Position numbers and translations under genes: made by a program | Part shown: in pieces, positions 28,483 to 32,346 of the stretch | How positions within the stretch are numbered: the first letter of the stretch is position 1 | Layout of the letters: the number at the start of each line of letters is the position of its first letter | Notes under the pieces: generated by a model | The model's input: the letters and a program-made list of their open reading frames with translations, nothing else | What the model was told of the DNA's origin: nothing | Databases searched by the model: none | From: Planctomycetota bacterium | GTDB lineage: Bacteria; Planctomycetota; Planctomycetia; Pirellulales; Pirellulaceae | Direction: 5' to 3' | Assembly (NCBI GenBank): GCA_027619595.1 | Contig: JAQCHP010000021.1 | Span: 1 to 48,533, forward strand | DNA length: 48,533 nt

Positions 28483-29841
28483 GTGGAGTTGATTGTCAGT
28501 GTATCGGGACTGCGCGGCATCGTGGGCGATAGTTTGACGCCGGAAGTTGCGGTCAGGTATGCCCATGCTTTTTCGCAAGTAATTGGGCCTGGCCCGGTTG
28601 TGCTCACCCGGGACGGCCGGGCGACCGGCTCGATGTTGGCTGACGCCATCGCGGCCACGTTGTCGGCCGTCGGACGCGACGTACTGGATGGCGGTCCGGC
28701 GGCGACTCCGACCACAGGACTGCTCGTGCGACAGCATCAGGCCGCCGGGGGGATTCAGGTATCGGCCAGCCACAATCCGCTTCCGTACAATGGCATGAAG
28801 TTGTTTGGGGCCGACGGTCGGGTTATCTCCGAAGAGTGTGGCGGGCAAGTTCTGGCGAGTTTTCAACATGCGATTCTTAGATGGAGTGACTACGCTTCCC
28901 TCGGTCAGCGCCGCCTCCTGACCGGCACGACCGAATTCCACTTACAAAAAATTCTCCAACTGGTAGATGTTGCCGCGATTCGAAACCAAGCCTACCGCGT
29001 TGTGCTTGACTCTAACCACGGTGCCGGCAGTTGTTTGGGAATTCCCTTGCTGCAAGAACTTGGCTGCAACGTGATGAGCCTGGGAGGAACTCCCGATGGT
29101 CAATTCTCGCATCCACCTGAACCGACGGCGGAAAATTTGGCTGGTGTGGGAATCGAGGTGACGCGTCACCGTGCCAGTATTGGCTTTTGCCAAGACCCGG
29201 ATGCCGATCGTCTTGCGCTCTTAGATGAGCATGGCACGTATATTGGCGAGGAGTACACGTTGGCATTATGCGTGCGGCATGTTCTGCAAGCCAGTCGCGA
29301 AGCAGGGACGCCTTTAGGACCAATCGTTACGAATTGTGCCACTAGCCGTATGACGGCGGATATAGCGGGCGAATTTGGCGTCCCGGTGTTTTATTCGCGA
29401 GTCGGTGAGGCCAACGTCGCAGATGTGATGGTTCAAGAACGAGCCTTGTTCGGAGGGGAGGGTAACGGCGGTCCAATCGATCCAAGAGTCGGTTATGTAC
29501 GCGATAGTTTTGTTGGAATGGCGATCATCCTTCACGCGATGGCGACAAATCGGCAGTCGCTTAGTCAACTCGTTGCCCAGATTCCTCGTTATTCGATTCA
29601 TAAATCCAAAGTATCGTTGGCCCGGGGTGACGTTCATGCTGCGATGGATCGGTTGCAGCAACATTTTTCGACGGCGCAGGCGAGTACTTTGGACGGCTTG
29701 CGGTTCGACTGGTCGGACCGCTGGCTGCTCATTCGAGCCAGCAATACTGAGCCGATCGTTCGTGTGGTCGCCGAAGCCCCTGATCGCGATGCAGCCCAGA
29801 GATTGTGCGATGATGCCATCAGCGTGCTTAAGGATCGTTAG
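28483..29841 (+). CDS. Phosphoglucosamine mutase-like phosphohexomutase (GlmM type)
   Basis: The 452-aa enzyme starts GTG with a strong GGAGGGG before it. Motifs: VSGLRGIVGDSLTPE, the phosphoserine loop SASHNPLPYNGMKLFG, metal-binding DPDADR, GGEGNGGPIDP and IRASNTEPIVRV. The EGNGG form of the sugar-binding loop is typical of the archaeal-type GlmM/PMM group rather than of classical bacterial GlmM. Glucosamine phosphate for peptidoglycan or lipopolysaccharide is a likely substrate; mannose phosphate is the alternative. A TACAAT (28412-28417) upstream may be its -10. It overlaps the convergent ATPase gene by 14 bp. Confidence 0.9.
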   Translation: MELIVSVSGLRGIVGDSLTPEVAVRYAHAFSQVIGPGPVVLTRDGRATGSMLADAIAATLSAVGRDVLDGGPAATPTTGLLVRQHQAAGGIQVSASHNPLPYNGMKLFGADGRVISEECGGQVLASFQHAILRWSDYASLGQRRLLTGTTEFHLQKILQLVDVAAIRNQAYRVVLDSNHGAGSCLGIPLLQELGCNVMSLGGTPDGQFSHPPEPTAENLAGVGIEVTRHRASIGFCQDPDADRLALLDEHGTYIGEEYTLALCVRHVLQASREAGTPLGPIVTNCATSRMTADIAGEFGVPVFYSRVGEANVADVMVQERALFGGEGNGGPIDPRVGYVRDSFVGMAIILHAMATNRQSLSQLVAQIPRYSIHKSKVSLARGDVHAAMDRLQQHFSTAQASTLDGLRFDWSDRWLLIRASNTEPIVRVVAEAPDRDAAQRLCDDAISVLKDR

Positions 29842-30520
29842 CGGCCGGTGAATTGGACCGATTGTTTCCGCAACCCGTTCTATCATGCATGAAGCGATTG
29901 TGATAAATATCGAACAGCGATAAGAGGAGTTCCCGCGAACTTCCGCCGCACTTGGCATAGCTATCTGCAACGTCTTTCTCTCCCACCAGTGGCTTACATT
30001 GTCGTTGCAACCACCGAGCGATGCTTTGCATACTCGCTAGATTGCAATCGGTCCGGTAGGTCCACGGTAGGTTCAAGTCGCGGTGCGTGGTGACCAACAG
30101 TCCGAATCCGTGGGCTCGTGCGGATCGTTCGATTCGCCAACGCCGAACGGCCGACAACTGTTCGTATCCGTCAATCATGAGGACGGTGCCTCGGTCGGCC
30201 GTACGCCATTCGAGCATCTGGCGGTACGTGGGGGGCGGATTCGCTGCGGTGATGGTCACGTGTCGGACTGGTATGGCTTGACTGGCAAAAAAACCGGCCC
30301 ATTCCATCAAGAGCGTCGACTTGCCGGTGCCATGGGGCCCGACAATTTGTCCCGAGCATTTGGCGGCGAGCCACGCTTCATAGAGCGATGGGATCGATTC
30401 GCCGGGCTCAAAGAAAAATGGAATCTGCCCGGGAGATAGGAATCGAGTGGCGAAGGGGTTATGCGGTTCAATTAGAAACCCTTCGCCATGTCCCCCGTGC
30501 TGTGGATCGACCTGGGACAT
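29828..30520 (-). CDS. Small P-loop ATPase (ExeA/AAA-like)
   Basis: The 230-aa protein has Walker A GPHGTGKST (residues 61-69) and Walker B TVLMIDGYEQL (Asp117). The N-terminal EPHNPFATRFLSPGQIPFFF and the helix-rich C-terminal part resemble small ExeA-type AAA ATPases, but the family is not certain. It begins 2 bp after the stop of the arrestin-like gene (TGACCATG), which points to translational coupling and a common function with it. The 3' end overlaps the phosphohexomutase gene by 14 bp on the other strand. Confidence 0.8.
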   Translation of the reverse strand: MSQVDPQHGGHGEGFLIEPHNPFATRFLSPGQIPFFFEPGESIPSLYEAWLAAKCSGQIVGPHGTGKSTLLMEWAGFFASQAIPVRHVTITAANPPPTYRQMLEWRTADRGTVLMIDGYEQLSAVRRWRIERSARAHGFGLLVTTHRDLNLPWTYRTDCNLASMQSIARWLQRQCKPLVGEKDVADSYAKCGGSSRELLLSLFDIYHNRFMHDRTGCGNNRSNSPAANDP

Positions 30521-30522
30521 GG

Positions 30523-30930
30523 TCAGGACCGACTTTTGTGGGGGGACCAGGGTGTTGTAATGTCGCCCAATTGAAACGGATGCTCGGCGGCAACCTCTTT
30601 ACCGCGGTGCAGAAAAACGCGTACTCGAGCGCACCAATAAACCTGCACGATATCACCGTGGTAGGTAAGCGGGCTGTTGGGCAGGAGCGTGGTGAACCGT
30701 CGGAGTGCTCTTAGGTCCTCTTCGGGGCTATCGGAGGCCACACGTCGTTCGAAGTAATGAACGCCGAGATCCTCGTCCCCCTTCCCCTCGGTATACCACA
30801 GAATGGACGCTTCGACCGACAAGATCTGATCGCGTTCGACTGCGTCAATTTGATAGTCGCAAACCATTTCGGACCCGGGGAAATAGACCGGCGGGCGACT
30901 AAACAGTTGGATGCTGATGAGGGGTTCCAT
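30523..30930 (-). CDS. Small arrestin-like beta-sandwich protein
   Basis: The 135-aa product is strand-rich with features of an arrestin-like half: YFPGSEMVCDYQIDA, LSVEASILWYTEGKG, then a LLPNSPLTYHGDIVQVYWC segment and an E.PF.LG end. The upstream gene's C-terminal part shows the same order of motifs (YPGHNYNVYL, GTDIRTERR, MPNPVMHSFQ...IQWKLLV). The ATG at 30930 overlaps the upstream gene by 32 bp; an in-frame TTG at 31014 is the alternative. No database family is named with confidence. Confidence 0.65.
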   Translation of the reverse strand: MEPLISIQLFSRPPVYFPGSEMVCDYQIDAVERDQILSVEASILWYTEGKGDEDLGVHYFERRVASDSPEEDLRALRRFTTLLPNSPLTYHGDIVQVYWCARVRVFLHRGKEVAAEHPFQLGDITTPWSPHKSRS

Positions 30931-31996
30931 GAAGTACGAAAGACCGTGGAGCGGCAATAGTGACGGATCTGCCCGAATTTGTGGGGTAGACGATAATCGG
31001 GAACGCACGTTCAAACCGTGGCCAACCGATGACTTCGCCTCGGACGAGTAGCTTCCATTGGATCGAATTGTGGGGAGCTTGAAAAGAGTGCATCACGGGA
31101 TTCGGCATGGTGACGCGATCCTGCCGTTCAAACGGCTGTCCCGGTCCGATATCGATGTCATCCACGGCAAACAACAATTGGTCCATCACTCGACGACGCT
31201 CCGTGCGGATGTCGGTCCCCTGATGGTAGGTGGCCTCTTCGTCGCAAACGAGACAGACCTCCAATCGCCGAATCAGCAGTCGTCCGGATTGGCTCAAATA
31301 GACGTTGTAGTTGTGTCCAGGGTACAGTGGGTGGTCGGAAATCTCCAAAGCGGTTGGGCCGATGGTAGTGGCTTGGGCCAACTGTTGGAAAAAAAATTGG
31401 GTGCTCCAGGCTCCGACAAATAAAAATGCGCCGACGAAAAACACAAAGAACCAGTCGACGTGCCCTGCGCGAAATTGCCGTACGGCCAATCCGATCAGAA
31501 CTGCCGTCGTGCCATGCCAAAACAGGCAAAAGAGCGCAAGGGAAAACAACAAGCTCCAGCCCGACGAAAACGACATGGGCAAGCGATAGGCAAGCTTTAC
31601 CCCAGGGCTATTTGTCAGGTCCTCTGCGGAGGGTAGTCCGGGGAAGGCTCGACGAGCCGAATCTCGGTCCAGCAAGATATCTAGTTTGGGAGTTCGTTGT
31701 GCTCTGGCCGACCGCCGTTCGGCCGAGGTCCCTACCTGCGACACAGAGAACAGTACGCCCAACGCCCCAGAAACGATGAGGGAAATCAATACGAGCAAAG
31801 CGATCGTCCGGGACCAATCCCATTGCGGAGCGTTCCCTTCCTCAAATACCAGGCCCGTGGCGACGAAAATAGTTGTCCCGACGGCGCCGGCGAGAAATAT
31901 ACCGGCAAAAAACATGGTCTCGCCGACGCGCCCCCAAATGGCGGAGCCGGTGGTTCGGTGCCCACGTTTCTTTTCCCACAGACGGAATCGTCGCAC
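30899..31996 (-). CDS. Four-TM membrane protein with C-terminal arrestin-like domain
   Basis: The 365-aa product has four hydrophobic segments (MFFAGIFLAGAVGTTIFVAT; IALLVLISLIVSGALGVLF; WSLLFSLALFCLFWHG...LIGLAV; WFFVFFVGAFLFVGAW). After them comes a beta-rich domain of about 130 residues, with PLYPGHNYNVYL, RRLEVCLVCDEEATYHQGTD, MPNPVMHSFQAPHNSIQW and FPIIVYP, which is arrestin-like and parallel to the next gene. It starts at a GTG with AGGAG 9 nt upstream. It lies 77 bp downstream of the solo alpha-CTD gene on the same strand. Role unknown. Confidence 0.75.
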   Translation of the reverse strand: MRRFRLWEKKRGHRTTGSAIWGRVGETMFFAGIFLAGAVGTTIFVATGLVFEEGNAPQWDWSRTIALLVLISLIVSGALGVLFSVSQVGTSAERRSARAQRTPKLDILLDRDSARRAFPGLPSAEDLTNSPGVKLAYRLPMSFSSGWSLLFSLALFCLFWHGTTAVLIGLAVRQFRAGHVDWFFVFFVGAFLFVGAWSTQFFFQQLAQATTIGPTALEISDHPLYPGHNYNVYLSQSGRLLIRRLEVCLVCDEEATYHQGTDIRTERRRVMDQLLFAVDDIDIGPGQPFERQDRVTMPNPVMHSFQAPHNSIQWKLLVRGEVIGWPRFERAFPIIVYPTNSGRSVTIAAPRSFVLHGTPHQHPTV

Positions 31997-32073
31997 TCGT
32001 TGTTCTCCTGCCGCGGCTTACGGTTGCGGCTTACCGGTAAGGAATGTCGGAGCCGCATCCCGTCATCCTTGGG

Positions 32074-32346
32074 TCAGCGGGCTTTGGGACGCCGATTGGG
32101 CCGATAAAAGCCGACGCTTTCCAGCGCCAGATAGACCTCTTCTAGCGTTTTTTCGCCGAAATTCGAGATCTCCAGCAAGTCCTCTCGTGTGCAATTTAGC
32201 AAGTCGCAGACAGTAAAAATGCCCCGTTCTTCCAGACAATTTGTCGTACGGACCGACAGCTTGATCTCCGCTGTGCTCATCGCCAATCGATCTTCTAAGT
32301 TGCGTTGATCACCACTTGTTTCACGAATTCGAATGCGAGTACTCAT
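32074..32346 (-). CDS. Free-standing RNA polymerase alpha C-terminal domain protein
   Basis: The 90-aa protein is essentially one alpha-CTD: IKLSVRTTNCLEERGIFTVC, then DLLEISNFGEKTLEEVYLAL. Compared with Escherichia coli alpha-CTD, the residues that contact UP-element DNA are kept (Arg265 as Arg33, Asn268 as Asn36, Cys269 as Cys37, Gly296 as Gly64, Lys298 as Lys66), while Ser299 is Thr67. The N-terminal alpha domain, needed for assembly into polymerase, is absent. A good GGGAGG precedes the ATG at 32346; a further in-frame ATG at 32361 is less likely. It is divergent from pcrA. Confidence 0.85.
   Translation of the reverse strand: MSTRIRIRETSGDQRNLEDRLAMSTAEIKLSVRTTNCLEERGIFTVCDLLNCTREDLLEISNFGEKTLEEVYLALESVGFYRPNRRPKAR

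Follow-up and report, generated by a model that had tools for sequence, protein, structure and literature searches.

In a 48,533-nucleotide stretch of DNA from a Planctomycetota bacterium of the order Pirellulales (contig JAQCHP010000021.1, positions 1 to 48,533; hereafter the window), three minus-strand genes form a tightly spaced cassette that is a real and widely conserved unit. The genes encode a membrane protein with four transmembrane (TM) helices and a beta-rich tail, a small beta-rich protein, and a P-loop ATPase. We judge the best overall explanation, with a probability of about 55%, to be a membrane-anchored, two-lobed arrestin-like scaffold whose lobes reside on two separate chains and which is served by a dedicated ATPase. 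The narrower statement that the cassette encodes a split arrestin-like protein together with an ATPase is very probably correct.

An earlier sequence-only reading had described four genes in this region, with a solo RNA polymerase alpha C-terminal domain (alpha-CTD) of 90 amino acids (aa) as the fourth. A check of the open reading frames (ORFs) found the same four minus-strand ORFs at the same positions, with an exact overlap of 32 bp between the TM-protein and small-protein genes and an exact gap of 2 bp between the small-protein and ATPase genes. The features of the three core genes are as follows.

30899..31996, minus strand: four-TM protein with a C-terminal arrestin C-lobe-like domain, core gene 1; 365 aa, GTG start
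30974..31363, minus strand: arrestin C-lobe-like domain within the TM protein, residues 212-340 of the model; predicted from Foldseek and VIA matches and from the tail profile against the C lobe of L043, a single-chain relative
31817..31858, minus strand: short TM1-TM2 loop, the site of DUF3592 in 16 scanned relatives (E up to 1)
30523..30930, minus strand: free arrestin N-lobe-like protein, core gene 2; 135 aa, ATG start, a 163-aa TTG reading also being open
29828..30520, minus strand: P-loop ATPase, AAA+/STAND-like, core gene 3; 230 aa
30317..30340, minus strand: Walker A GPHGTGKS, three G and the K invariant in 67 sequences
30167..30184, minus strand: Walker B VLMIDG, D invariant in 67 sequences

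Predicted arrestin fold of the small protein and the TM-protein tail

The AlphaFold model of the small protein, built from a 19-member alignment, has a mean predicted local distance difference test score (pLDDT) of 90.5 and a predicted template modelling score (pTM) of 0.83. Foldseek matched it to the ARRDC3 N-lobe (1.5e-7), Spo0M (6.0e-6; PDB 5cl2) and also beta-arrestin, with TM-scores of about 0.5-0.67, while VIA returned Vps26A with a Z-score of 12.6 (root-mean-square deviation 3.8, 122 aligned residues). The model of the TM protein shows four long helices, as the sequence-only reading had anticipated, then two shorter helices of low confidence and seven beta strands. It is weaker overall (pLDDT 76.8, pTM 0.63), with ten-residue block means of 80-97 across residues 212-340. 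Its Foldseek matches include the N-domain of TXNIP (1.0e-8) and Spo0M (5cl2), and VIA gave ARRDC3 (Z-score 11.9), with VPS26 among the best Z-score matches. Both beta-rich parts are thus predicted to adopt an arrestin-lobe sandwich resembling solved arrestins. Structure prediction followed by a search for arrestin folds was the check proposed for the earlier claim that the two parts are paralogous arrestin-like halves, and the models bear that claim out.

The sequence evidence for a putative arrestin identity stands independent of the predicted models. All 12 PDB sequences matched by the small-protein profile at an E-value up to 5 are an arrestin-domain protein, TXNIP, VPS26 or ARRDC3, with best values of 1.0e-5 for an arrestin-domain protein over the whole chain and 0.0018 for TXNIP. 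Weak Pfam matches among the 19 small-protein members (E up to 5, best 0.0012) comprise Arrestin_N in eight, Vps26 in six and Arrestin_C in four. The ordered motifs described earlier as common to the TM tail and the small protein reflect a genuine relationship, since a family profile-profile comparison with hhalign aligned the two over 109 columns (probability 90, E 1.7e-6); the small protein, however, carries FPG where YPG had been reported. We call the window proteins arrestin-like because none passes a Pfam arrestin-clan cut-off.

Single-chain relatives indicate which lobe is which. At locus L043, from the same phylum, one 357-aa chain (L043:7271-8344) contains Arrestin_N (53.6 bits; cut-off 24.9), a hydrophobic hairpin recognized by eye, and Arrestin_C (49.3 bits; cut-off 27.7), and it also exceeds the Pfam Spo0M cut-off. 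The small-protein profile aligns with residues 6-130 of this chain, its N lobe (2.1e-17), and the TM-tail profile with residues 219-348, its C lobe (1.3e-21). These alignments equate the small protein with the N lobe and the TM tail with the C lobe. Both lobe types also share a chain at L041 and L051, where the TM protein and the small arrestin are fused in cassette order. The order of paired matches suggests further single-chain arrestins in genomes G005, G040, G044, G118 and G220. At L045:8585-9181 the small arrestin carries an N-terminal extension; a GspF-like look of this extension (L031/L045) received no confirmation from Pfam and was set aside.

Conservation of the three-gene cassette

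Of 246 genomes sampled from the phylum, 29 contain homologues of the TM protein, and a separate search found small-arrestin matches in 30 of 242. All 29 genomes of the first list recur in the second; in each, a single contig bears the two matches at separate places, which in some genomes (G018, G118) are on one chain. Within the window's order, 26 of 27 genomes match the TM protein strongly (E up to 6.8e-59). Among the 91 genomes of the class outside the order, 39 have matches at 1e-5, many of them over the DUF3592 part only.

From a scan of named genomes that gave 132 relatives, 80 were retained; 68 of these carry labels that read as Planctomycetota. Complete cassettes also occur in records labelled Opitutaceae, Puniceicoccaceae, Pedosphaera, Lentisphaeria, Hydrogenedentota, Desulfobacterales and Thermoanaerobaculia. 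Most are metagenome-assembled genomes (MAGs), and faulty binning may account for some of the labels. Two records that carry all three genes, Blastopirellula marina DSM 3645 (L091) and Planctomycetales bacterium ZRK34 (L080), have no MAG mark in their titles.

For a census of gene order, loci were located through the TM protein alone, with the second copies of five loci (L028, L029, L031, L033 and L034) dropped beforehand. In 79 of the 95 loci of the census, the sequence continues for 1.8 kb or more beyond the TM gene; the 16 shorter ones were left out. Alignment A1 omits L030, L032, L041 and L043 of the first 20 loci (frame-broken or fused), A2 omits L041 and L043, and A3 omits four loci that lack an ATPase gene. 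A small arrestin is present in 76 of the 79 loci, in 73 as the next gene and in three on the same chain (L041, L043 and L051). The ATPase is present in 67, and both partners in 66. The three loci counted without a small arrestin are L081, which has a second TM gene followed by a small arrestin and an ATPase, and L074 and L112, which have none.

The genes are closely packed: with the nearest possible start chosen, a procedure that favours short distances, 70 of 75 junctions between the TM protein and the small arrestin and 69 of 77 between the small arrestin and the ATPase lie within 40 bp, and a start codon permits a 4-bp overlap at 39 and 31 of them, respectively. The order TM protein, small arrestin, ATPase is shared throughout the phylum, and some records bearing labels of other phyla have it too. 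Neighbourhood conservation, the second check proposed earlier, thus holds for these three genes, but less so for the alpha-CTD, whose solo form was seen, among the class genomes scanned, in the window's order only.

The ATPase

Across 67 ATPase sequences there is no variation in the three glycines and the lysine of Walker A, the aspartate of Walker B, one histidine and one arginine, a pattern that identifies the protein as a P-loop NTPase. This alignment retains the sequences left after 10 of 77 loci had been dropped as too similar, and truncated L076 was removed from A8 by hand. The window copy passes no family cut-off, its best Pfam match being AAA_25 at 1.5e-5, and one of three singly scanned relatives passes AAA_22 and AAA_30. 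Weak matches at 0.001 are most often to AAA_16 (42 of 67), AAA_22 (31) and NACHT (21), and RFC2 aligned across 145 profile positions, covering most of the ATPase domain. A RecA concatemer, the top PDB row of the ATPase profile, is a sum of weak P-loop matches and was discarded. The 67-sequence alignment gives no decisive match between AAA+ and STAND, and we accordingly use AAA+/STAND-like as a provisional class.

The nSTAND and NACHT matches, weak as they are, raise the question whether the cassette is a conflict system, anti-phage or other, with a STAND-like NTPase at its core. PADLOC mad8 likewise matches the window ATPase at 2.4e-5, over the P-loop only, and the L028 ATPase at 1e-5 over residues 51-181. 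Each part, however, has a single strong match in its own genome and the TM protein is strong in 26 of 27 genomes of the order; the cassette therefore behaves as an inherited core gene in the order, although it is patchy elsewhere (29/246). We regard a conflict system as very improbable.

Membrane topology and a proposed mechanism

DUF3592 (PF12158) was detected at an E-value up to 1 in 16 of the 17 TM-protein members scanned (best 2.8e-19), the exception being the window copy. The domain is also missing between TM1 and TM2 in four further genomes of the same order (G260, G272, G309 and G344), so its loss is not an artefact of the window. In the window TM protein, the ratio of arginine and lysine to acidic residues is 7:1 in the N tail, 0:3 in the TM1-TM2 loop, 10:6 in the TM2-TM3 linker and 2:1 in the TM3-TM4 loop. 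Given the arginine- and lysine-rich N tail and TM2-TM3 linker, we read the termini and this linker as cytoplasmic.

With both termini in the cytoplasm, the arrestin domain, the free lobe and the ATPase would share one compartment, and DUF3592, where present, would face outward from its place between TM1 and TM2, acting as a sensor or binding a partner. We hypothesize, as the most parsimonious account, that the free N lobe binds to the C lobe held in the membrane, a pairing that we consider somewhat better supported than not, and that this would rebuild an arrestin-like clamp on the inner face of the membrane, holding a membrane client. More tentatively, ATP binding or hydrolysis by the ATPase may load, open or release the clamp. 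AAA+ remodellers act in a similar way on adaptor proteins. The function that we infer for the cassette is that of an ATPase-controlled, membrane-tethered arrestin scaffold. A fuller version would be a prokaryotic arrestin machine, in which split lobes, one of them fixed in the membrane behind an outward-facing DUF3592, form an ATPase-driven clamp on membrane clients and work as a receptor scaffold in the manner of eukaryotic arrestins; we offer this as speculation that has the odds against it.

Evidence against the scaffold and an immunoglobulin-like alternative

Several observations weigh against the split-arrestin scaffold. No window protein passes a Pfam arrestin-clan cut-off, the TM protein and the small protein pass no Pfam or NCBIfam cut-off at all, and the Spo0M cut-off (PF07070) is reached by no window protein. 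In the best PDB match of the small protein, the top single stretch alone is weak (0.061), and the TM-tail profile found nothing better than 0.81 among PDB sequences. The ATPase is absent from 12 of the 79 loci and is therefore not required everywhere. Over 77 loci, the three proteins agree in their pairwise distances with correlations of 0.81-0.89 (shuffled maximum 0.14), figures uncorrected for shared ancestry. Finally, a nameless cysteine-rich family has same-strand members downstream of the cassette in 29 loci, of which 23 have the alpha-CTD, and could be a further component; it emerged from a clustering that included shadow reading frames and was used for leads only. One example, L052:12446-13291, appears to be secreted by the look of its N terminus.

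The fold evidence also has a competing interpretation, in which the beta-sandwich halves are generic immunoglobulin (Ig)-like envelope or adaptor domains that do no arrestin-type clamping, and the unit is an ATP-driven module for membrane assembly or transport. Non-arrestin Ig-like folds do score nearby in the structural comparison: the sandwiches of SoxYZ (Z-score 11.2) and an agarase carbohydrate-binding module (Z-score 10.3) stand among the arrestin rows of the small-protein VIA list, and the absence of other folds from such lists excludes nothing. DUF3592 and the four TM helices would also suit an envelope role. Against this, the L043 chain exceeds three Pfam cut-offs (Arrestin_N, Arrestin_C and Spo0M), and the PDB sequence matches of the small protein are arrestins, TXNIP and VPS26 in 12 of 12 cases. 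Although it is the strongest competitor to the arrestin-like scaffold, we consider the Ig-like module rather unlikely.

The solo alpha-CTD and other neighbours

Two further features adjoin the cassette.

32074..32346, minus strand: solo RNA polymerase alpha-CTD, an order-specific neighbour that we judge to lie outside the unit; 90 aa, TTG reading 95 aa
32333..34999, plus strand: divergent ORF that we take to encode a UvrD-like helicase, its true start probably further in; it adjoins the alpha-CTD gene in 20 of 26 genomes

The alpha-CTD passes Pfam RNA_pol_A_CTD (PF03118) with 65.1 bits against a cut-off of 23.8 (4.6e-18). It had been described as a polymerase-binding module, which is loose wording, because the alpha-CTD binds DNA and activators, and joining the polymerase core falls to another part of alpha. 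A system of four genes, with the alpha-CTD as the transcriptional output of a membrane arrestin module, would fit its position: in the window, and in 26 of the 90 loci with at least 600 bp of upstream sequence, a same-strand alpha-CTD precedes the cassette at less than 600 bp, and in 19 of 26 genomes of the order it precedes the TM gene on the same strand at no more than about 2 kb. The details of these 26 genomes speak otherwise. The TM gene directly follows the alpha-CTD in five. An opposite-strand PQQ-type propeller gene intervenes in 14, with the TM gene beyond it on the same contig in every case; in most genomes the two therefore cannot share a simple transcript. Neither arrangement occurs within 1.5 kb in seven, including G309, whose same-strand TM gene is found at a distance of about 4 kb, and G336, which is close to a contig end. 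Within the same 1.5 kb, a UvrD gene is divergently adjacent in 20.

Its distribution argues in the same direction. Among 118 genomes of the class, 26 of the 27 that belong to the window's order have a solo alpha-CTD (E up to 1e-12), as against none of the other 91; a more diverged solo copy outside the order would escape this threshold. All alpha-CTD matches in those 91 genomes fall in frames of at least 333 aa, and none is better than 1.9e-17. Yet some of these genomes have the TM protein and the small arrestin; in G024, G137 and G194, whose surroundings were read, both are present and the ATPase and alpha-CTD are not. Full cassettes exist in other classes as well. The proposal of a fourth component has proximity in its favour; we find it improbable and conclude that the solo alpha-CTD is probably a lineage-specific neighbour outside the unit.

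Two further arrangements involving alpha-CTDs were seen. In the same genome, G000:C253 (L021) holds a 450-aa frame with TPR-like repeats, recognized by eye, followed by two alpha-CTD domains. Loci L058, L083 and L109, labelled Nealsonbacteria or Kuenenia, show the alpha-CTD and cassette arrangement of the window's order and are possibly mislabelled bins.

On the other side of the cassette, the 3' end of the ATPase gene reaches 14 bp into a convergent plus-strand gene at 28483-29841, presumably encoding a sugar phosphomutase. Between 24974 and 39950 of the window, the surrounding ORFs include products that we take to be UvrC-like, UvrD-like and Mfd-like. In the flanks of the 51 loci without a nearby alpha-CTD, no Pfam family occurs in more than 4 of 89 proteins; this set consists of the nearest gene on each side, up to 800 aa, from a crude gene caller. 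A pathway link through neighbouring genes was set aside, as at most 4 of the 89 flanking proteins share a Pfam family; the recurrence of the cysteine-rich family downstream speaks against setting it aside.

Comparison with known systems

Arrestin-clan proteins play a central part in how eukaryotes control and sort receptors, and two reports describe bacterial Spo0M as a single protein whose role is unclear (PMC2515105, PMC5325327). Spo0M is presented as a bacterial member of the arrestin clan (PMC2515105) and as reported to interact with cytoskeletal cell-division proteins (PMC5325327); the latter adds Euryarchaeota, Deinococcus, Chloroflexi and Proteobacteria, and does not contain the string Planctomyc. 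PMC2699828 contains none of the bacterial terms sought, and PMC6524685 names arrestin in a reference only. Searches of the literature on bacterial arrestins and Spo0M, DUF3592, VPS26 and retromer, Asgard arrestin domains and planctomycete membrane coats, with most subscription journals outside their coverage, found no description of the cassette. The folds are known; their combination as a cassette is apparently undescribed.

A split, membrane-anchored, ATPase-linked unit offers a defined gene set for asking what bacterial arrestins do, and the DSM 3645 and ZRK34 records, which carry all three genes, make tests in cultured strains possible. If the proposal is true, planctomycetes and some other bacteria possess a receptor-scaffold system akin to eukaryotic arrestins.

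Among characterized proteins, B. subtilis Spo0M (PF07070) is a structural match of both parts (5cl2), and L043 exceeds its family cut-off. Spo0M is nevertheless a single protein, whereas the cassette distributes its lobes over two chains, one of them membrane-anchored, with an ATPase gene next to them. The eukaryotic alpha-arrestins ARRDC3 and TXNIP are the best Foldseek matches of both parts; they are single two-lobed chains with no TM anchor and work with ubiquitin ligases.

VPS26 of retromer is likewise among the best Z-score matches and places a two-lobed arrestin fold at a membrane. It is, however, one chain that binds VPS35, whereas the cassette flanks show no such partner and an ATPase gene instead. 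One could imagine a retromer-like sorting machine, in which a membrane-anchored VPS26-like adaptor gathers envelope proteins for ATP-driven recycling, the more so as VPS26 matches both parts and the hosts include bacteria with unusual membranes. Neither a VPS35- nor a VPS29-like partner was seen among the flanking proteins, in which no named family exceeds 4 of 89, and a Planctopirus study argues against vesicle-mediated uptake (PMC5394234). We give such a machine little credence and retain the membrane-anchored arrestin-like scaffold.

With AAA+ and STAND ATPases (AAA_16, AAA_22, NACHT, RFC) the third protein shares weak but broad matches, but its window copy falls under every cut-off and the family consists of short single-domain proteins with their own conserved N-terminal NP(F) motif. 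DUF3592 proteins (PF12158) resemble 16 of the 17 TM-protein members scanned; what sets the cassette apart is that DUF3592, where present, precedes two further TM helices and an arrestin lobe.

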